From positions 35,555,501 through 35,619,500 of the forward strand of contig NC_080567.1 of NCBI RefSeq assembly GCF_030253575.1: a stretch of DNA of 64,000 bases, given 5' to 3'. How positions within the stretch are numbered: the first letter of the stretch is position 1; the number at the start of each line of letters is the position of its first letter. Under the pieces are notes generated by a model that did no database searches, was not told where the DNA came from, and saw only the letters and a list, made by a program, of their open reading frames with translations. A program made the translations under genes and the position numbers. Source of the stretch: Rhododendron vialii (taxonomy: Eukaryota; Streptophyta; Magnoliopsida; Ericales; Ericaceae). Below, piece after piece: positions 10,585-61,069 of this stretch.

Positions 10585-13101
10585 ATGAGGGCTGCCGAGG
10601 ACATCAACAAACACCCTGCTGAGTGATGGCAAACGCATCTGCTGCTCTTGGGCTGATCTGGTCTTCTTCAACAGTGGCTCTGGTGAAGAAGAAACCGAGG
10701 ACCCCACCACAGCCCAGGAGTCATTTGAGCTATCAGAGCTGAAATATGCATCAATCACTCCACTTGGGCTGCTTGGAATTTGCTCATACTTTCTCTTGCG
10801 AGGATTGGTTTGTTGGCCATTGAAGAAGCAAGTAGTGGTTGATAGCTCTGTTATGAGTTGATGGCAATCATTCACATCCTCCTGTATCAGAGCATTATTG
10901 GCTTCGTTTTAAACACTAATGCACGATGAAGACGAACAAAGATGACAAAAACAATTATGGGGGTTAATGGCACTTTGCTCCTCGAAATATCTTAAAAGAT
11001 GCAGTTTACCCCCTTTTAAAGTACAGTTCGCACGCTGCACCCCATATATTTGTAGAAACCGTTTGGAATGTTCCCAAAAATGAGTTTTGGCACTGGGAAT
11101 TCATAGATAAAGAACATAGAAGAAACAACTTTTGGAGTTCAAGATTAGTTCAATTTTTGCGATGTTCCACAAATTTTTGATTCCTTATGCTCTATATCGA
11201 ATCACAGCTCGGCTATAGAGGCTGCATTTCGCACCTGCTTATGAGGCTCGCACATGCGAGTAAGATAGTATGTTGTGCGCATGCGGTGGCCAAGATGAGA
11301 TGCTATCTTTGTTTACTGAACCATAGCGGCACTAGGAATGTAATCTACTCAGGGTAAAGTAAGTTGGTGGGTGAAAAGGGTTTGGTTAAAATTATTTGGC
11401 CTAAATTTTACACATAAAATTTTGGTTTTTTTCCAAAACTGACCTGGGCTATAGAGCCCACCCCATTCTTTATATAGTTCCGCCCTGCATAGCCCGAGTA
11501 AGAATGCAAACTTGGAATATTGCAACTAGTTGAAAACTTCAGGTTTCAGTGTGTCACTTTCAATTCTGTAGGGGTAAGCTGAAAACTTCACAAGAACTTC
11601 AGGGGACAGAGTGCCATTATCCCATAACTAGTACTACTACTAGTAAGAACAAAGAACCCATTAATAAAGGACAAATAACACGCACCCTGCTGAGATTGAG
11701 AACGCCCAGAAGCTGGTTTTGGTAATCCATGGCATCCACAGGTTCTATCTGATGTATAACGTGAAGCATTGTTGCAGTGGCCAACACAGATGGCAGATAC
11801 CGCACAAATCTTGAATCTATACAAATCATGAACAAAACGCATATGTGTAATGATGATTATTATTATAAGTAACAAAAGCTTTTGTTTCTTTGTTGGTTGT
11901 TGTTATCGAAAAGATCTGACAAGATTATGGTCAACGGGATTCGAGGAAGAACGAGGTTTATGATAATGGGTTTTGCTCACCGGCGACGGCGGAGAGGAGG
12001 AGGCGCTCGGATCGCCGGAGAAACTCCCAGTGGAGATGGTTGTTCAGTCCAAGCCTCCTTATAATGTGGTCGAGAAATGAGATTGGGGTCACCGGATTCA
12101 TTCTCCATCGGAGTGTTGACAGCACCAATAGCTCCATTCTCTGGATTGTTTTGGCCTCGAAAACAAACTTCGTGTCTTCCACCTAATCAAGAAGCAAAAA
12201 ACAAAGTACTCCACTGTATTATTTACAACTCAATCCAAATCCAAGAAAAATTGGAAACAAGCAAGAAATTGAAGATCTTATTCAACATCATTATAACCCA
12301 TCTCAGGATTTTGCAACTCCAAATGCCAACATCAACCGATGGCGTAAATTTACTTAGAATGTGTCAAGACTCTTAAGAGATAAGAGCGGTACGAGTTTTC
12401 TGTGGACCCACACATGCGAGATGGCTCCAGCAACTGGTCGAGACACACCGATTATCGTATCATCAATATTCACACGCACGCACCCCAATGCCGCAACTAA
12501 AATTAAGATGCAAAATCCGGTAACTAACGAGAAACAAATCGATGCAGAATGTGACCTTCAAAAGAAAAATTAAGGGTTGTGAATTTTTTCCACATACTTG
12601 AAGGTCTAAGAGGAGAGGGACTTGGGTTTCTTCAACTTTAGCAGCTAAAGAGAGACAGGTCACAGCAGCAAGCTGGATCATCCATGGCTTCTCTCTCTGG
12701 AAATGAAGGCCAGACAGAAACCTATCCAGATAATTAATGGCAAGAATTGCAGTGAGAGCCGTGAATCCGTAGTAGGCATGGACTTTTAGAATCCATTCCA
12801 CAGACTCTTTTCGGGCCAGACGGAGTGCATAGTACTGATCTGGATCTCTGCTCTCAAGATCAAGATGAACCTTCATCTCTTTCTCTTTGGAGAAGAGAGA
12901 GAGAAGCTCTTCATCTTCCCAAAACAGGTCATGTTCCAGTGAAAGCAGAGGAAAAAGAGATGGGTTTGTTGTCCTCCCATTATTGCTAATGCTCTTACTA
13001 ATCCCATCTCTCTCCTCTTCTCCTACTTCTTCTTCATCCCATTGCTCTTCCTCGCAGTACAGAGCATCTAACAGAGGTGAGTGGTTTTGCTGTATAGCCA
13101 T
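10582..13101 (-). CDS. CYCD3: D3-type cyclin (G1/S regulator)
   Basis: Four exons in phase: 13101-12598, 12182-11981, 11816-11686, 10881-10582, giving 378 aa, the usual CYCD3 length. D-type cyclins activate CDKA to phosphorylate the retinoblastoma-related protein and drive G1/S entry in the nucleus. Seen: the RBR-binding LxCxE motif LYCEE (residues 14-18), an acidic N-terminus, a cyclin box from about residue 95 (YALRLARKESVEWILKVHAY, and NYLDRFLS at 123-130, AAKVEETQVPLL) that continues across exon 2 (KTIQRMELLVLSTLRWRMNP), the second cyclin fold in exons 2-3, and the Ser-rich CYCD3-like tail DSSNDSWAVVGSS. I chose the start at 13101 because MAIQ matches the family; an in-frame ATG at 13149 would add 16 residues. 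Intron 3 holds a TIR element. Family membership is near certain; subtype D3 rests on recalled sequence resemblance. Confidence 0.95.
10958..11624. mobile_element. Mutator-like TIR element in cyclin intron 3
   Basis: The left end gggggttaatggcactttgc and the right end gagtgccattatccc are inverted repeats. Further inward, gcagtttacccccttttaaa pairs loosely with taggggtaagctgaaaactt. The element fills most of the last intron. No open frame or clear target duplication was seen. Long degenerate TIRs of this kind are typical of non-autonomous Mutator-like elements. Confidence 0.5.
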
Positions 13102-13304
13102 CTTCTTCCGGGAAGAAGAGATTTTAGTCTGTTGTTGCTCATTACACAAAAGAGAAAAGGAAAGTGGACCTCATTCTAACACTGGACGGTCCACTCTCTC
13201 TCTCCTCTGTCCTCTGGCGTTTAAGAGAGAGAGACAGACTCAGTTCTCAAAAAAAGAAAGAAAAGGAAGAGATTTCATCAGAGTGGGTTTCACGCTTGTC
13301 CTTT

Positions 13305-42857: not shown

Positions 42858-47148
<4,291 letters not shown>

Positions 47149-50654: not shown

Positions 50655-50985
50655 TATGATAGTTTAAACTGTCTAAAAAAGTTGAAAAATTAAGTATTGT
50701 AAATTTCAATCCGTTTGAACCGGTGAAAAAATTTTAGTTTTCTGATCATTTTATATTAGATGGTCATAATTAAATTTTGACTATAGTGCTCTCGTTGATT
50801 AATTTTAAGAAAGTCGTAGAATTAAATATCTCTTAGGGTTAATCAACGAGAGTTCTAGAGTCAAAATTTAATTATGACTATTTAGGATAAAATGATCAGA
50901 AAAATAAAATCTTTCCATCAGTTCAAACGGATTGAAATTTGAAACACTTAATTTTTTAACCATACTTTTTAATATATAAACTGTT
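50655..50985. mobile_element. Nested foldback element 1
   Basis: The left arm (ttcaatccgtttgaaccggt; tctgatcattttatattaga; tctcgttgattaattttaag) pairs with the right arm (gttaatcaacgagagttcta; taaaatgatcagaaaaataa; agttcaaacggattgaaatt). The hairpin is about 330 bp with a short loop. Confidence 0.75.
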
Positions 50986-51524: not shown

Positions 51525-51835
51525 TTATTTTATTTTAATGTCCTTATTCAAATTTTTTTCGCATTTGTTAGTTTTTGGTCAATTTTTTGGGGATTATTGC
51601 TTTTTCATAACAAGAGGAATCTAAAAAGTAAAAAACTACAATCAAAATCCATTTTTTTAAAATAAAGACGAAAAAATTGGCTTATTAACTTATTTTTGTC
51701 TTTATTCAAAAAAATTAGGTTTGGATCTTAATTTTTTACTTTTTAGATTCCTCTCATCATGACGAAGCAATAATTCTCAAAAAATTGACTATAAACTAAC
51801 AAATGCAAAAAAAAATTTGAATAAATACATAAAAA
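51525..51835. mobile_element. Nested foldback element 2
   Basis: The left arm (atttttttcgcatttgttag; ggaatctaaaaagtaaaaaa) pairs with the right arm (tttttactttttagattcct; actaacaaatgcaaaaaaaa). Similar ttagattcctctc stretches occur at about 15650, suggesting a dispersed family. Confidence 0.7.
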
Positions 51836-53058
51836 TAAGCCAAGTGACTTAATTAGCCGACCGCCCCCTTAATATTAAACTATCACAAAAATATAATTTT
51901 TTCGTTTTACATTATTACACTATCAATATTAGGCTCGTTTGATAGGTTTCGTTGAGTAGATTTCAAAAATATATAATTTATTAAAAAAATACGTGAAAAA
52001 AAATTATTAGTATTTAATATTTTACAAAAAAAAGAGAGAAAGAGAGAGAGGGGGTGCAGTGAGAGAGAGAGAGAGGGGTAGGGGTAAAAGAGGAAAAGGG
52101 GAGCCGTGTCAGGAGGGGGGCCTGACACGGAGGGGGCGATTAGTAATCTCCCAAACACAAGATTTAGTAGAGAAAGTACCTCAGAGAGTAGCAGACCATA
52201 TATCTCTATCCTCTCTCTCCTGATGGGCACAAGAGAGGCAGGGGTAGCATGCATGATTTATTGAGTAGCAGAACTTCTAACTCTAGGTCTTCTCCCGCCT
52301 TCGGAGTCAATTATAGAACTCACCTTAGACTGGAAATTTCTAATTTTCTACCCGTGTTAACTCAATTCTATCACCAAACACCACATGATTTCTTGCATTT
52401 TGTTTGTTTATGGAACCAAACTTTCAGTTATTTTTAGATGGCTTAATATGCTTTTTCTTTTGGTCTGTTTTTTACTGGTGTTCGTTTTCCATTCCAACTA
52501 GTCTCTGACAAATAGGACTATCCATAAAAGAATTAAGTTCCTCTACCGGATAAGTGTATCTATAACTCTTTATTCATATCCTCCATTTTGCTTTTGGTTG
52601 AGTTTGATGTCCTTAGAATTGAGAAAGTATAAGATGTTAGCTTATGAAGATGCTCATAGTTTTGCAATCTATAATATCTCGCAAAGTATGATTCCTTTCA
52701 AACATTCCATGATCCCTTTGTAGTTTGTGTCTGTGTAATTTTTTAAGATGGGAATGTGTTGTTTAGATTGTCCATTTTGCGTTTCCTTAACTGCTGTAGG
52801 TGTTCAATTTGATCATTTTCCTGGTGGCGCTTCTCTGAATTATTGTTAGAACATAAAATTTCTTGAGCCTTGCCTCAAGTGGTAAAGGAGTCAGTGATAG
52901 GTAGGTGGTGTGTCCAATTTTTGAAAAGCATATGACAATCACGATAACTCATAATTTCGTAGAGAACAAAGGATACAGTACTTAAAAAACTCTTAGTGTA
53001 AACATAAGTGAAATATACAAAGTTTATTTAAGGGCCAAAGAAACATAGGTAACTTGTG

Positions 53059-54519
53059 TCAGTTGGTATTGAGCTCTAGTTCTTCAAGTAAAGCACTCAG
53101 GTAATTGTAAGAGGATCCACCCTTTTCAACAGCCTTCTTTGCTGCCTCTCCCAGTGCCCTTGCTCTGCTCCTAATTCCCTCAGCTTCTTCACAAACCATT
53201 AGTTGAACCACTGCCTTCTCTATATCTTCCCTCTTGACATAAATCTTGCCCTCCTCCGGCCATCTACACCATTCCTGAGCCCCTACTCCGATTCCAACCC
53301 TCAGAATGTCAGTCACTAGCTTTTCATTATAAAACTGCTCAGCAAACAACGGCCACGCAATCAAGGGAACTCCAGCAGTCACTCCCTCCAGCAATGAGTT
53401 CCATCCACAGTGAGTCATAAACCCTCCAACTGCTTTGTGATCGAGTATAAGCACTTGTGGGGCCCACCCCCTTATTATGAAGCCCTTCCCCTCTAACCTC
53501 TTCTCAAACCCATCTGGTAACCACTCTTCCCTATCTTCTTCTTCCTTCTTTTTCTCCTTCCGCACAACCCATATGAATTCCTGTCCAGAATTTTCCAGAC
53601 CCATTGCTATCTCAAGTAGCTGAACATTCGAAAAGTAGGACAAGCTTCCAAAGCACACATATAGAACTGAGTTTGGTTCCTTTGAGTCAAGCCAAGTCAA
53701 GCACTCCTGCTCGTTGATAGAGATTTTGCTTCCTCTACGAATTTTATCGTCGTTGTCTCTGTTGCAGAGTGAGACGGGACCCACATGCCACACCCTTTTT
53801 CCAATTACCTTACTGTAGAGTTCTGAGTAAGTCGGTTCCAGCTCATGGAAGCTGTTTATTACAACACCATAGCTTGTCACCTCCGATTCCATAACTTTCT
53901 CCATCAACTTGGTAACCTGGTTTTCAGTTCCATCTCTTATGAAATCAGGGAGTTGACGTCTTGTCATCATAATTTTGTTTGGAAGGCCAGGCACAACGAA
54001 AACTTCTGAGTCTGATTTGATGTTCTTGTAAGGTTCTTGTTGGGTTAATACATGATGAACACAAAGAGCGTATGCACTAGATCCGTGGAAAGCCAACCTT
54101 GGAATCCCATGCTTAGTTGCAACATCACTAGCCCATGGAAAGAACACATCAGCGACTAGGCAATCTGGGGAGTCCTCTTCTAAGAGGTTTTCAAATGGCT
54201 GTTGAAGAAGCTCCGCGGCGTTGCGGATCTTTTGGGACATTTCTCGGGCAGTGATGGAACTGTGGCTCTCAATGCCTTCAGGCAGTCCAACTTCTGCTGA
54301 AGGGAAGTTAATAAGACGAATAGTGGTTTCCAAGCCAAGTTCTCTGTCTCTGTCAATTGTTTTGGAGACGAGAGTGGCATTGAGGGGTGTTAGAATTAAG
54401 GTTGCTTTGACGCCGCGCCTGGCAAATATTCTGGCCATTTCTACCATTGGGATCATGTGGCCATGAGACATCATTGGAAGGAAGTAGATATGAAGCTTAT
54501 AATGAGGTTTTGAATCCAT
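53059..54519 (-). CDS. UGT73-like UDP-glycosyltransferase, copy 1
   Basis: Single exon, 486 aa. Family-1 UGTs transfer a sugar from UDP-sugar to small molecules in the cytosol; UGT73 relatives act on coumarins, flavonoids or terpenoids, and the acceptor here is unknown. Seen: SHGHMIP with catalytic His21, its partner Asp124 in CLVADVFFPWA, and the donor-binding PSPG box at 352-395 ([10 protein letters not shown]...HCGWNS...FAEQ). The final Gln is typical of glucose donors. There is no signal peptide or membrane segment, as expected. Length and all motifs are normal, so it should be active. It is the upstream-most member (in + coordinates) of a three-gene array and the tandem twin of 56496-57959. 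A TATA box lies about 125 bp upstream. Confidence 0.95.
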   Translation of the reverse strand: MDSKPHYKLHIYFLPMMSHGHMIPMVEMARIFARRGVKATLILTPLNATLVSKTIDRDRELGLETTIRLINFPSAEVGLPEGIESHSSITAREMSQKIRNAAELLQQPFENLLEEDSPDCLVADVFFPWASDVATKHGIPRLAFHGSSAYALCVHHVLTQQEPYKNIKSDSEVFVVPGLPNKIMMTRRQLPDFIRDGTENQVTKLMEKVMESEVTSYGVVINSFHELEPTYSELYSKVIGKRVWHVGPVSLCNRDNDDKIRRGSKISINEQECLTWLDSKEPNSVLYVCFGSLSYFSNVQLLEIAMGLENSGQEFIWVVRKEKKKEEEDREEWLPDGFEKRLEGKGFIIRGWAPQVLILDHKAVGGFMTHCGWNSLLEGVTAGVPLIAWPLFAEQFYNEKLVTDILRVGIGVGAQEWCRWPEEGKIYVKREDIEKAVVQLMVCEEAEGIRSRARALGEAAKKAVEKGGSSYNYLSALLEELELNTN

Positions 54520-54965: not shown

Positions 54966-55333
54966 TACGGAGCGGTTCCGGGACACTTAAAAAACCCTTT
55001 AAAAAACCCCCCCAAGTTTCCGATCGAATTTTGATGATTCGAGCCGCTCAATGTAATTAGAACGTGATTTTAAGGGTGCCCTTAAGAAATCAGCAAAAAA
55101 AATAATCGGGAAGAGCTTCATCCAAACAGTTTTTTATTGAACTTTATTGAACGGTTCAATAAAAAACTGCTCAAATCAAGCCCTTCCCGGTTAGTTTTTT
55201 TGCCGGTTTTCTAGCAAGTACTTTTAAAATCACGTTTTGAACACATTGAGCGGCTCAGATCATCAAAATTTGATCGAAAACTATGAGATTAAGATTTGGA
55301 GGGTTTTTTTAAGTGTTCCCGGAACCGCCCCGA
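54966..55333. mobile_element. Foldback MITE, family A copy 2
   Basis: The ends ggagcggttccgggacactt and agtgttcccggaaccgcccc are inverted. Inside, gagccgctcaatgtaattag pairs with cacattgagcggctcagatc, and the centre has gaacggttcaataaaaaact with matching cgggaagagc/cccttcccgg. It is about 368 bp, inserted between TA-rich runs, and related to 3437-3791. Confidence 0.8.
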
Positions 55334-55689: not shown

Positions 55690-56048
55690 ACACTATATTT
55701 AACCACTACATCATCCACTACATATTTTGTAGGGCTCACCCTATGTCCCAAAAAAATACAGAAAAATATTCATAAATTTTAAAATAATATATTATGGGGC
55801 CTTGTAAAAAATCAGCTCCAACAAATATCGGTAAATATTATTTCTTGATTTGTAGGGGCGAAACGGTGCAGTTAAACAGTTTCATCCCTACAAATCAAGA
55901 ACTAATACTCACCGATATTCTTTGGAGCTGATTTTTTACAGGGTCCCATAAAATATTATTCTAAAATTTATGGACATTTTCTGTATTTTTTTGAGAGCCG
56001 GGGTGAGCCGTATAAAAAATGTAGTGGATGAATAATAGTGTATGTAGC
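55690..56048. mobile_element. Foldback MITE in UGT unit 2
   Basis: The left arm (catccactacatattttgta; aaaaaatcagctccaacaaa; cttgatttgtaggggcgaaa) pairs with the right arm (tttcatccctacaaatcaag; tttggagctgattttttaca; aaaaaatgtagtggatgaat). The element is about 359 bp and absent from unit 1. It differs in sequence from family A. Confidence 0.8.
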
Positions 56049-56495
56049 ATCTCTCAAAGTTAAACGAGAGAAAGACAAGAGATGATAGCGTCCGAAGATT
56101 CTCACATTTTATTGCAATCTATAATCAGAGTGTGATCCCTTTCAAACATCCCCGGATCCCTTTGTTGTTTGTGTTGGTTTTAATTGTTTTAAGCTAGGAA
56201 TATGGTGTTTAGATTGTCCATTTTGCACTTCTTTAACTGCTTGAGGTGTTCAATTTGATCATTTTCTTGGAGGCACTTCTCTAAATCATTTTTAATACTT
56301 AACTTTCTTGCGCCTTGCCTCAAGTGATAAAGGAGTTGGCGATAGATCGGTGGTATGTCCAAATTCACATGACAATCACGATTACCCATAATTTCATAGA
56401 GAAGAAGGATACTATACTTGAACAAACTCTTATTGAAAACATAAGTGAAAGATACAAAGTTTATTTAATGGCCAAAGAAACACAGGTAACTTGTG

Positions 56496-57959
56496 TCAGT
56501 TGGTATTGAGCTCTAGTTCTTCAAGTAAAGCACTCAGGTCATTGTAAGAGGATCCACCCTTTCCAACAGCCTTCTTTGCCATCTCTCCCAGTGCCCTTGC
56601 TCTGCTCCTAATTCCCTCAGCTTCTTCACCAACCATTAGATGAACTACTGCCTTCTCTATATCTTCCCTCTTTACATAAACCTTACTCTCCTCCGGCCAT
56701 CTACACCAATCCTGAGCTCCTACGCCGACTCCAACCCTTAAAATATCAGTCACTAGCTTTTCATTATAAAACTGCTCAGCAAACAACGGCCAGGCAACCA
56801 ATGGCACTCCAGCAGTCGCTCCCTCCAGCATCGAGTTCCATCCACAGTGAGTCATAAACCCTCCAACCGCTTCGTGATCGAGTATAAGCACTTGAGGGGC
56901 CCACCCCCTTATTATGAAGCCCTTCCCCTCTAACCTCTTCTCAAACCCTTCCGGCAACCACTCTACCCTATCTTCTTCTTCCTTGGTCTTTTTCTCCTTC
57001 CTCACTACCCATATGAATTCCTGTCCGGAATTTTCCAGACCCATTGCTATCTCAAGTAGCTGAACATTTGAAAAGTAGGACAAGCTTCCGAAGCACACAT
57101 ATAGAACCGAGTTTGGTTCCTTTGAGTCAAGCCAAGTCAAGCACTCATGCTCATTGATAGAGATTGTGCTTCCTCTTTGAGTTTTATCTTCGTTGTCTCT
57201 GTTGCAGAGTGAGACGGGACCCACATGCCACACCTTTCTTCCAATTGCCTTACTATAGTGTTCGGAGTAAGCCGGTTCCAGCTCATGGAAGCTGTTTATT
57301 ACAACTCCATAGCTTGTTACCTCTGCTTCCATGACTTTCTCGATCAACTTGGTTAAGTGGCTTTCAGTTCCATCTCTTATGTGATCAGGGAGTTGTCGTC
57401 TCGTCATTGTAATTTTGTTTGGAAGGCCAGGCACAACGAAGACTTCTGAGTCTGATTCGATGTTCTTGTAAGGTTTATGCTGGGATAGTTCGCGATAAAC
57501 AGAAAGAGCATATGCACCAGTTCCATGGAAAATCAACCTTGGTATCCCACGCTTAGTTGCAACTTCACTAGCCCATGGAAAAAACACGGCAGCGACTAGG
57601 CAATCTGGGGAGTCTTCTTCTAAGAGGTTTTCAAATGGCTGTTGAAGAAGCTCTGTGGCCTTTAACATCTTTTGGGACATTTCCGGGGAAGTGATGGAAC
57701 TTTGGTTCTCAATGCCTTCAGGCAACCCAACTTCTGCTGAAGGGAAATTAATAAGACGAATAGTGGTTTCAAAGCCAAGTTCTCTGTCTCTGTCAATTGT
57801 TTTGGAGACGAGAGTTGCATTGACGGGTGTTAGGATTAAGGTTGCTTTGACGCCGCGCCTGGCAAATAGTCTGGCCATGTCTACCATTGGGAGCATGTGC
57901 CCCTGAGCCATCATTGGAAGGAAGTAGATGTGAAGCTTATTGTGAGGTCTTGAATCCAT
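56496..57959 (-). CDS. UGT73-like glycosyltransferase, copy 2, catalytic Asp replaced
   Basis: Single exon, 487 aa, very similar to copy 1 along its whole length. Seen: QGHMLP with His21 and an intact PSPG box at 353-396 ([13 protein letters not shown]...HCGWNSMLEG...FAEQ). The expected catalytic Asp124 is Ala: CLVAAVFFPWA, codon GCC at 57588-57590 (copy 1 has GAT). In plant UGTs this Asp pairs with the His to activate it for acceptor deprotonation, so activity is expected to be lowered or changed. The frame is fully open, so this is not a plain pseudogene; it may be recently inactivated, use another residue, or have a different role. The TATA-like box of copy 1 is not preserved. The gene lies in unit 2 of a 3-kb tandem duplication. 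Confidence 0.93.
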   Translation of the reverse strand: MDSRPHNKLHIYFLPMMAQGHMLPMVDMARLFARRGVKATLILTPVNATLVSKTIDRDRELGFETTIRLINFPSAEVGLPEGIENQSSITSPEMSQKMLKATELLQQPFENLLEEDSPDCLVAAVFFPWASEVATKRGIPRLIFHGTGAYALSVYRELSQHKPYKNIESDSEVFVVPGLPNKITMTRRQLPDHIRDGTESHLTKLIEKVMEAEVTSYGVVINSFHELEPAYSEHYSKAIGRKVWHVGPVSLCNRDNEDKTQRGSTISINEHECLTWLDSKEPNSVLYVCFGSLSYFSNVQLLEIAMGLENSGQEFIWVVRKEKKTKEEEDRVEWLPEGFEKRLEGKGFIIRGWAPQVLILDHEAVGGFMTHCGWNSMLEGATAGVPLVAWPLFAEQFYNEKLVTDILRVGVGVGAQDWCRWPEESKVYVKREDIEKAVVHLMVGEEAEGIRSRARALGEMAKKAVGKGGSSYNDLSALLEELELNTN

Positions 57960-58286
57960 GTAGCCTTTTAGGAGGAATGAGAATTGTGAAGTAGATGATG
58001 AAAGAGGCTGAAGAGCGACCGTAAGGCAATATGCTCAAGTAGAAACTGTACAAGGGACTAAGTTTGGATCTTTTCTATTTTCTTGTACAATTCCCATGTT
58101 GATTGTTCTTCTCTTACTCTCATATTTAAACACCAATGAAACTTGGAGCTGAAGCATGGAAATCATCTCTCTTTTTTCACTGCAATAGCGTTTTGGTATA
58201 AATCATATTTTAGTCCAAACTTGCAGCCGACTTGGCTGACTGACTTTGGGCGCTAATCAAACAAAATGACGAAGCAAGCAAGAAGA

Positions 58287-58287
58287 T

Positions 58288-58347
<60 letters not shown>
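58287..58347. repeat. Compound (TC)n(AC)n microsatellite
   Basis: About 18 nt of CT followed by about 43 nt of AC, upstream of UGT copy 2. Confidence 0.95.
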
Positions 58348-58349
<2 letters not shown>

Positions 58350-58399
58350 CTATATTGGTCTAGTTTATTGTTTTCTATGAACTTGGAGTGCAAGAAATG

Positions 58400-59600
58400 C
58401 CTTGGTAATCACATTGCTATATTGATTGTTATCAGGTCAATGAGAGACTTATGCAATGCTTCTTTCATTTAGCTTCTTCCGATGAATTATAATTAATTAA
58501 ACTGAGCTGGTTTTGTCCCTTTTAAAATCCATCATTGGTTGCGTTTCCAAAATAAGAAAATCTCCTTCTCTTTCAAAGACTAGGATACCTTACTTGTTGA
58601 GGTTATATTTGTTTTGAGAAGTTTAAATTAGTGGGCCGAATCACCTTCACTTGTCTTAACTTGGCTCCGCCTATATGGCTCCCCCTAAGGTTTTGGTACT
58701 TTGTCGTGGCGGCAGCTCATGTGCTCGTTGTTCATTCCTTGACGAGGCCCATGTCCCATGGTGTTCATTGGCCTATTACACTATAAGATCGTAGCATTAT
58801 TGCGTCGATCTGTTTGGCCCTTGACTCCTGACCCTTCCCGGCCTAAACTCTCCATACTCTCCATCGCCAGTGCGCTGACCCTCAATTATTTACAATTAGG
58901 CTGATCAGGATCGTATTATATTCTCATACTATATCTAGTTACCATAACAAATTACACGAGGAGGCCTTGAAATTCTTGGGGCTCTGTCAAAGCTATAAAG
59001 TGCAGGCTAGGATCTTTACCGTATAATCCAAGGTTTAGGGGCCCCGAGCAATAACTTGGTGGGTTTATGCCTAGAGCCAAGCCTATGCGACTCTCGATCT
59101 GTTTAATGGCGGTTAAAAAATTACAATATCTTTTCTTGTTTCGTCTTCAACAAGGCCGTGCCTTCTGTTGATATCTTCCATCGCTTTGTTTTTGTAAGAG
59201 ATGGGTTCGCTCTGTAACTTGGATGCTATTTTACTTGGGGTCTTGGGGGTAGGTAGTTGGGTTTGTTAGTCATGATATTTGTTTTCGTTTGCTGTCGTTC
59301 CATAGCAAAGGGGGTGCTCTTTAATGGTCTAACGGAGTGCTCTTGAATGGACGTGCTTGAACCAAAACGACGTCGTTCTGGAGGGACAACATAAATATTG
59401 TCCCTAAAGGGCAACAATTGATATCCCCGCTTCCCTTAAAATAGGATAGCAGTTTAAACATAAATATTTTCGTGGACTTGTATGGGACCAAACCAATTTC
59501 TCTTTCATATTTATGGTAATAAAACAAATTTACATAAAATAGCAAATAGAAAAAATTGAAGGACAAAAACACAAAAAGCAATCAACTCAACTCAAATCAA
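58400..59600. other. Spacer between UGT copies 2 and 3
   Basis: No gene or clear repeat structure was recognised. 58650-59100 has moderately higher GC and could be decayed retroelement sequence, but nothing specific supports it. The right end contains the 3' flank of UGT copy 3. Confidence 0.4.
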
Positions 59601-59638: not shown

Positions 59639-61069
59639 TCAAGTTCGATAAGAACTCAGTTCACGTATCAGATCATTCAAATCAGCGTAGGATGATCCAC
59701 CTTTCTCAACCGCCTTGTTAGCAATCTCCTTAAACCCTCTCGCCTTATTCCTCATCACCTTTGCCTCTTCCCCCACCATAACTTGTCGCACCGCCTTCCC
59801 AATCTCCTCTCTCCTTACCCCATTATTCACCTTCATGCTCCACTTTTTATTCCCAACGCTAACCCCAATTCTCAAAATCTCTGTCACCAACTTCTCATTG
59901 TAAAATTGTTCCGCAAACACCGGCCACGTCACCATCGGAACTCCGGCGCTGACCCCTTCCAATGTCGAATTCCACCCGCAGTGAGTCACAAAACCACCCA
60001 CTGCTTCGTGATCGAGAATCAACACTTGGGGTGCCCACCCTCTGATAATTAAACCCTTGTCTTTCATCCTCTCTTCAAACCCCTCTGGTAGCCACTTCTC
60101 GTTATCCTCTTCGCTTTTCCCTCTCCGAACAACCCATACGAATTGTTGCCCAGAAGATTCTAGACCCATTGCGATCTCGTACAGCTGAGAATCGTCAAAT
60201 TTCGCCACGCTTCCGAAACAAATATAAAGCACTGAATTGGGTTCCTTCGAATCCAGCCATTTTAAGCACTCGTGTTCGTCAATCGCTGCTTCTTTACCCC
60301 TGTGTGCTTTGTCCTCGACTGCTCGATTGCATAACGAAACGGGTCCAATATGCCAAGACCTTCTTTTCAAGACAGTCCTGTAATAATCAGCGTACTTTGT
60401 TTCAAGCTCGTAAAAGCTATTGGCTATAACTCCATAGCTTGATAGCTCGGATTCTTTCATTTTTATCCGCAGCTTTGTGAAATCTGATTCGGACCCATCC
60501 CGTTCGTCCTCTGACAGTTGCATCTTTGTGAGCCTAATTTGATGAGGAAGGTCAGGCACCAAAAAGGGTTCATCATTGGACGAAACTTCTCTCTGGGGCT
60601 TGTATAACCTCATATTCTCCGTAGCACAGAGAGCAAAAAAGCTAGTCCCGTGGAAAACCAGCCTCGGAATGTTGAATTTCGCGGCGACTTCGGTGGCCCA
60701 TGGGAAGAACGAGTCCGCGACGAGGCAATCGGGTCGGACCTCATCGAGGATCCGCTCGAGCGGGTGTTGGAGCATAAACATGGCTTTGAAGAACTTGGGC
60801 ACCATGTCGTCGGTGGTGATTCCATCGGCACTTTCGCACCCTTCTGGCAAGCCAGCAGCGGCCGCCGGGAATTCGAGGGTGAGGATTCCCATTTCAAAGC
60901 CCAGCTGATTGGTTCTTTCAACTGATTTCTGGAAGAAATGGACGTTGAGGGGAGTGGTGATTATGGTGGATTTGACGCCGCGGGCAGCGAAGAGTTTGGC
61001 GATGTCAAGAGTTGGGATCATGTGGCCGTGAGCCATCACGGGGAAGAAGAAGACATGGAGTTGACCCAT
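59639..61069 (-). CDS. UGT73-like UDP-glycosyltransferase, copy 3 (divergent)
   Basis: Single exon, 476 aa. The reaction is the same as its neighbours': sugar transfer from UDP-sugar to a small acceptor that cannot be named from sequence. Seen: AHGHMIP with His16, partner Asp119 in [17 protein letters not shown] box at 345-388 ([13 protein letters not shown]...[10 protein letters not shown]...FAEQ) ending in Gln as in glucose users, and the UGT73-typical [11 protein letters not shown]. It is clearly a more distant paralogue: the loop after the PSPG box ([15 protein letters not shown]) differs from copies 1 and 2 (CRWPEEGKIYVKRED). Its spacer is unrelated to the 3-kb units, so it was not part of the recent duplication. 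A strong TATA box lies about 95 bp upstream. All motifs are intact. Confidence 0.95.

Follow-up and report, generated by a model that had tools for sequence, protein, structure and literature searches.

The Asp that partners the catalytic His is commonly taken as the mark of a working plant UGT, and a tea survey inspected UGT sequences for this residue (PMC10279963). Both members of the His-Asp dyad were required in SgUGT73AM30, where H22A and D127A each abolished the glycosylation of mogrol at an aliphatic hydroxyl (PMC13336362), and simulations of PtUGT1 indicated that the dyad is needed for O-glycosylation and not for N- and S-transfer (PMC8819650). In UGT76C2, the D112A change lowered N-glycosylation and raised O-glycosylation (PMC12246196). 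For a soybean UGT, both PMC5517534 and PMC10279963 cite a report that His15 and Asp125 are unimportant. The absence of Asp from UGT84 enzymes has been explained by the anionic state in which their acid acceptors already occur (PMC10279963). In CsUGT75L12, the Asp place is held by Thr151, where T151A raised activity and T151D lowered or abolished it; replacement of His56 by Ala was tolerated and replacement by Leu was not, and Gln54, two residues before His56, was proposed to be more important (PMC5517534). It should be noted that SgUGT73AM30 also carries a Gln two residues before its His in our alignment and yet is dead on D127A, so that Gln alone does not rescue the loss of Asp in that enzyme.

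We analyzed a stretch of 64,000 nucleotides of Rhododendron vialii (NC_080567.1, positions 35,555,501 to 35,619,500; hereafter the window), which contains three uninterrupted UGT reading frames, all on the minus strand, and compared them with a further copy (copy 2b) located just beyond the window end (Table 1). Direct reading of the codons bore out what the initial annotation had stated, namely that copy 2 carries Ala at the catalytic-Asp place of an intact frame with its catalytic His and PSPG box retained, and that both its tandem twin (copy 1) and the third UGT (copy 3) keep the Asp.

Table 1. Positions of the UGT73-type genes, of the residues discussed and of neighbouring features (window numbering unless C11 is given).
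Feature	Position	Strand	Observation
Copy 1, UGT73-type gene	53059..54519	-	486 aa; Asp kept (GAT at 54148-54150); 86% identical to copy 2
Copy 2, UGT73-type gene	56496..57959	-	Intact 487-aa ORF; Ala replaces catalytic Asp
Copy 3, UGT73-type gene	59639..61069	-	476 aa; Asp kept (GAC at 60713-60715); 57% identical to copy 2
Copy 2b	C11:35620073-35621536		Intact; 97.3% identical to copy 2; starts 573 bases beyond window end
Duplicated block including copy 2	56280..58688	-	Gene and both flanks; second copy (with copy 2b) just beyond window end; 93.9% identity over 2455 aligned bases
Ala124 of copy 2 (catalytic-Asp place)	57588..57590	-	Codon GCC
His21 of copy 2 (catalytic)	57897..57899	-	Kept; His in 56/56 aligned UGTs
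Gln19 of copy 2	57903..57905	-	CAG codon, where copy 1 has CAT (His); arose on the branch that also gave Ala124
Gly148 of copy 2	57516..57518	-	Codon GGT; Ser in seven aligned array relatives; same derived branch
PSPG donor-binding box of copy 2	56772..56903	-	44 residues (353-396); 14/14 listed conserved positions
MITE-like inverted repeats	50681-50960, 51530-51838, 54968-55332, 55711-56031		Around copies 1 and 2
(CA)n microsatellite	58305-58347		Perfect; ~350 bases upstream of copy 2 start codon
Cyclin (Cyclin_N)	12463-13149	-	First-exon-like ORF
Papain-type cysteine protease	46627-47148	-	First-exon-like ORF with I29 propeptide; Peptidase_C1 match just below cut-off

Copies 1, 2 and 3 each match the Pfam UDPGT domain (PF00201; 66.3 bits for copy 2, against a cut-off of 19.5), and the 14 PSPG positions given as the most conserved in PMC8037650, located by counting box positions by hand, are identical among the three copies. 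Copy 2 thus has the UDPGT domain, the PSPG box and the N-terminal His of plant family-1 UGTs (GT1, PSPG), and lacks the Asp partner of the His (Ala124). This partner is a usual feature of the family and not a strict one, as 11 other Asp-free UGTs were found among the 56 compared in this genome. Residue 124 of copy 2 lies in the context PDCLVA-A-VFFPWASE. In a rice C-glycosyltransferase a neighbouring acidic residue reportedly takes over for the Asp; such a substitution is unlikely in copy 2, which has no acidic residue at positions 120-131, the nearest in sequence being Asp119 and Glu132.

Copy 2 is a member of UGT73 (group D): its best PDB sequence matches include UGT73 proteins, and it was grouped, with a tree support of 100/100, with the C11 array and with UGT73-like genes of C3, C4 and C6, whose family label is inferred. 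Among its four best PDB matches, 6lzx (which we take to be PaGT3), UGT73C1 (9x43) and SgUGT73AM30 (26fx), with 577, 443 and 427 bits over nearly the full length, share with copy 2 the His and the PSPG box and differ from copies 2 and 2b in having Asp where these have Ala. Asp occupied the place in all five PDB alignments examined. In addition, copy 2 did not group with group L (UGT75/UGT84), since the seven Asp-free group-L-like genes of this genome form a separate, distant clade; its identity to the seven UGT75-type genes, a label that is likewise inferred, is only 28-30%. Copy 2 shares with group L both the lack of the Asp partner and a Gln two residues before the His, a likeness that reflects convergence and not membership. 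The group-L-like structure 8inh, presumably a UGT84, has Asn at the Asp place.

The UGT84 enzymes, which form glucose esters, resemble copy 2 in being described as lacking the Asp, and are described as acting on acid acceptors (PMC10279963); unlike copy 2, they belong to another family, in which the absence is a family-wide trait and not one recent substitution. CsUGT75L12 of tea is also naturally Asp-free with a Gln two residues before the His, and Ala at its Asp place is compatible with activity, whereas it differs from copy 2 in belonging to group L, in having Thr and not Ala, and in that its His can itself be replaced by Ala (PMC5517534). The UGT76C cytokinin N-glucosyltransferases offer a further case of a natural dyad change in which activity was kept and selectivity shifted, although theirs is the reverse one, with His changed to Cys and the Asp kept (PMC12246196). 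The literature searched, by queries that did not name that change, yielded no plant UGT73 in which Ala naturally occupies the Asp place. Asp-free plant UGTs are already known, and what is new here is the Ala version in UGT73, carried by a young tandem pair whose neighbouring twin has kept the Asp.

Copy 2b also has Ala124, encoded by GCT, whereas copy 2 has GCC and copy 1 has GAT, so that the amino-acid change needed one base only. The most parsimonious history places the Asp loss as a single substitution from GAT to GCT (an A to C transversion) on the common stem, before the split of copies 2 and 2b, with the third-position T to C change in copy 2 as a later silent one. Gln19 (CAG in both Ala copies, as against CAT in copy 1), S148G and other changes were derived on this same stem.

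The dN/dS comparison proposed in the initial annotation was carried out with array relatives and outgroups, using a codon model written for this analysis (nine array genes and 474 codons, together with a six-gene fit), and copies 2 and 2b proved to be constrained. Between the two copies, dN was 0.0134 and dS 0.0485 (omega 0.276; omega=1 rejected, LRT 12.2). Their coding regions differ by 32 mismatches in 1464 sites with no indel, as compared with 43 mismatches in 898 aligned sites and 112 gap columns in the flanks (Fisher p=0.0006, coding against flank). On the two Ala tips together, omega was 0.272 in the nine-gene fit (omega=1 rejected, LRT 12.9, p=0.0003), with a rough 95% range of ~0.13 to 0.55 obtained from fixed-omega trials, and omega=1 was also rejected in the six-gene fit (LRT 13.5). 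For the whole Ala clade, the nine-gene fit gave an omega of 0.284 (LRT 14.6 against 1), which did not differ from that of the Asp-bearing background (LRT 0.35). The stem branch bearing the Asp loss had an omega of 0.319 in the nine-gene fit, where omega=1 was not rejected (p=0.19), and of 0.232 in the six-gene fit, where it was rejected weakly (LRT 4.3); the apportioning of changes between this stem and copy 1 is uncertain given the long branch to the outgroups (~1.7-1.9). Copy 1 was considered as the relaxed copy and this was not retained, as its omega of 1.03 in the six-gene fit dropped to 0.68-0.74 in the nine-gene fit, values that cannot be distinguished either from 1 or from that of the Ala clade (p=0.13). 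Neither a broken frame nor neutral evolution, which would mark a pseudogene, was seen, as the frames are intact and the two Ala tips have an omega of 0.27. Purifying selection has thus acted on copies 2 and 2b since their split, although this constraint does not prove catalysis.

To place the Ala pair among the UGTs of this genome (532.6 Mb, 13 contigs), we searched it with the copy 2 protein and scored 88 of 471 candidate places. Sixty-one of the 88 were read, seven of those left out being partial C-terminal matches, and 59 of the 61 had an ATG-to-stop frame of 250 aa or longer (L024 and L071 had none). Three frames shorter than 420 aa (L011 = L031, L025 = L033 and L026) were dropped, leaving 56 UGTs for comparison, including L012, whose match contains a stop and whose frame was taken from an ATG further on. 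The catalytic-Asp place was occupied by Asp in 44 of these, Asn in four, Ser in four, Ala in two and Thr in two, and to regard this Asp as fixed in plant family-1 UGTs is thus too strong, with 12 of the 56 lacking it. On the maximum-likelihood tree, built with the trait columns kept in, the 12 Asp-free genes require three changes, corresponding to the Ala pair, a UGT73-like trio with Ser on C3, and the seven group-L-like genes. The C3 trio (L019, L021 and L022) consists of three intact UGT73-like genes within ~25 kb, with Ser at the Asp place (LITSNALPW); they are 87-93% identical and constrained (omega 0.23-0.29), and represent another loss of the Asp among UGT73-like genes, distinct from that of the Ala pair. 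The Asp is kept in all seven aligned array relatives.

A Gln two residues before the catalytic His was present in 12 of the 12 Asp-free UGTs, as compared with eight of the 44 Asp-bearing ones, and it also occurs in the Asp-bearing UGT73C1, SgUGT73AM30 and UGT74F2. This association of Gln with absence of the Asp is suggestive only, as it involves three events, with which an independent-pairs sign test cannot reach 0.05.

Taking these observations together, we read copies 2 and 2b, with moderate confidence and on the strength of their sequences, as putative working Asp-free UGT73 glycosyltransferases with shifted acceptor chemistry. Of the three possibilities raised in the initial annotation (a newly dead enzyme, a regulator or heteromer partner, and an enzyme with altered chemistry), the last one fits best, because Asp-free UGTs have been reported to work (PMC5517534 and PMC10279963), and 12 of the 56 UGTs compared in this genome have no Asp. 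Without its Asp partner, His21 would be a weaker base, which would favor acceptors that need little deprotonation, such as carboxylic acids, acidic phenols, and N or S nucleophiles. The effect should then be greatest for aliphatic alcohol acceptors and smallest for those that are acidic or require no proton removal. Gln19 might conceivably help to hold acceptor and donor, by analogy with the proposal made for Gln54 of CsUGT75L12, and UDP-glucose is the likely donor, since the PSPG box ends in Gln. Two published results stand against an active Asp-free enzyme: D127A is dead in the Gln-bearing SgUGT73AM30 (PMC13336362), and the PtUGT1 simulations require the dyad for O-glycosylation (PMC8819650).

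A stronger version, which we hold to be doubtful, is that the loss of Asp and the gain of Gln in UGT73, with stem changes such as S148G, would have been coupled in a single remodelling of the active site, as a recent repeat of what took place in the UGT75 lineage in the distant past. If this were true, copies 1, 2 and 2b would form a natural before-and-after series for leaving the His-Asp mechanism.

The main rival to an active enzyme is a constrained non-catalytic protein, in which the Ala copies would bind UDP-sugar or aglycone without transfer and serve as a partner, sink or regulator of active neighbours. The post-loss constraint fits any protein function, Asp-bearing tandem paralogs lie close by, and D127A abolishes activity in a Gln-bearing UGT73 relative (PMC13336362). 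The retention of the catalytic His and of all 14 listed donor-box positions, together with the reports of active Asp-free UGTs (PMC5517534 and PMC10279963), argues in the other direction, and we consider this explanation possible but unlikely.

It is improbable, although compatible with the equal omega of the Ala clade and the background and with the dispensability of His15 and Asp125 in the soybean UGT (as cited in PMC5517534 and PMC10279963), that copies 2 and 2b are ordinary UGTs acting on the usual acceptors at a slightly lower rate, in a background that can do without the Asp and in which losing it was almost neutral. The presence of Asp in the seven aligned array relatives and in 44 of the 56 UGTs indicates that it is normally held by selection, and its replacement was fatal in a UGT73 (D127A; PMC13336362).

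Less probable still is a recently inactivated enzyme that is translated and drifting. The D to A change kills a UGT73 (PMC13336362) and the omega of the stem is not separable from 1 in the nine-gene fit, which would be compatible with such a loss, but the Asp loss is common to two paralogs that have both stayed intact since a split at dS ~0.05, with omega=1 rejected for the two tips taken jointly (omega 0.27) and no indel across 1464 coding bases between gapped flanks, all of which disfavors the newly dead enzyme. Finally, a sequencing, assembly or haplotype artefact behind Ala124 has a negligible probability, despite the use of a single assembly, as the two loci encode Ala by different codons, show gaps and a divergence of 4-5% in their flanks, and lie in rearranged surroundings; a miscall or a haplotig was rejected on these grounds. 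The initial annotation had dismissed a single miscall from the fact that GAT and GCC differ at two positions; that conclusion holds, while the argument does not, given the GCT codon of copy 2b and the one-base change that it implies.

At this locus, one base change removed the Asp from a young, selection-maintained tandem pair, which lies beside an 86%-identical Asp-bearing copy. Since the Ala pair is maintained next to that copy, the role of the Asp is directly testable with natural proteins. UGTs should accordingly not be called dead on the Asp residue alone.

Other features of this region were also observed. The MITE-like inverted repeats listed in Table 1 are each 280-370 bp long, with a match of 76-84% to their own reverse complement. 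Further along C11, at ~35.6268-35.6309 Mb (71334-75380 in the window frame), a copy-3-like UGT (L031 and L032) is split by a ~4.05-kb insertion that looks like an LTR retrotransposon, its direct terminal repeats being ~690 bp long and 97.7% identical and the whole being flanked by a 5-bp repeat. At ~112409-135927 in the window frame (L035-L038), the halves of another array UGT lie ~23.5 kb apart, and the intervening DNA contains 2.6-kb repeats of 99.7% identity, probably as a result of nested insertions.
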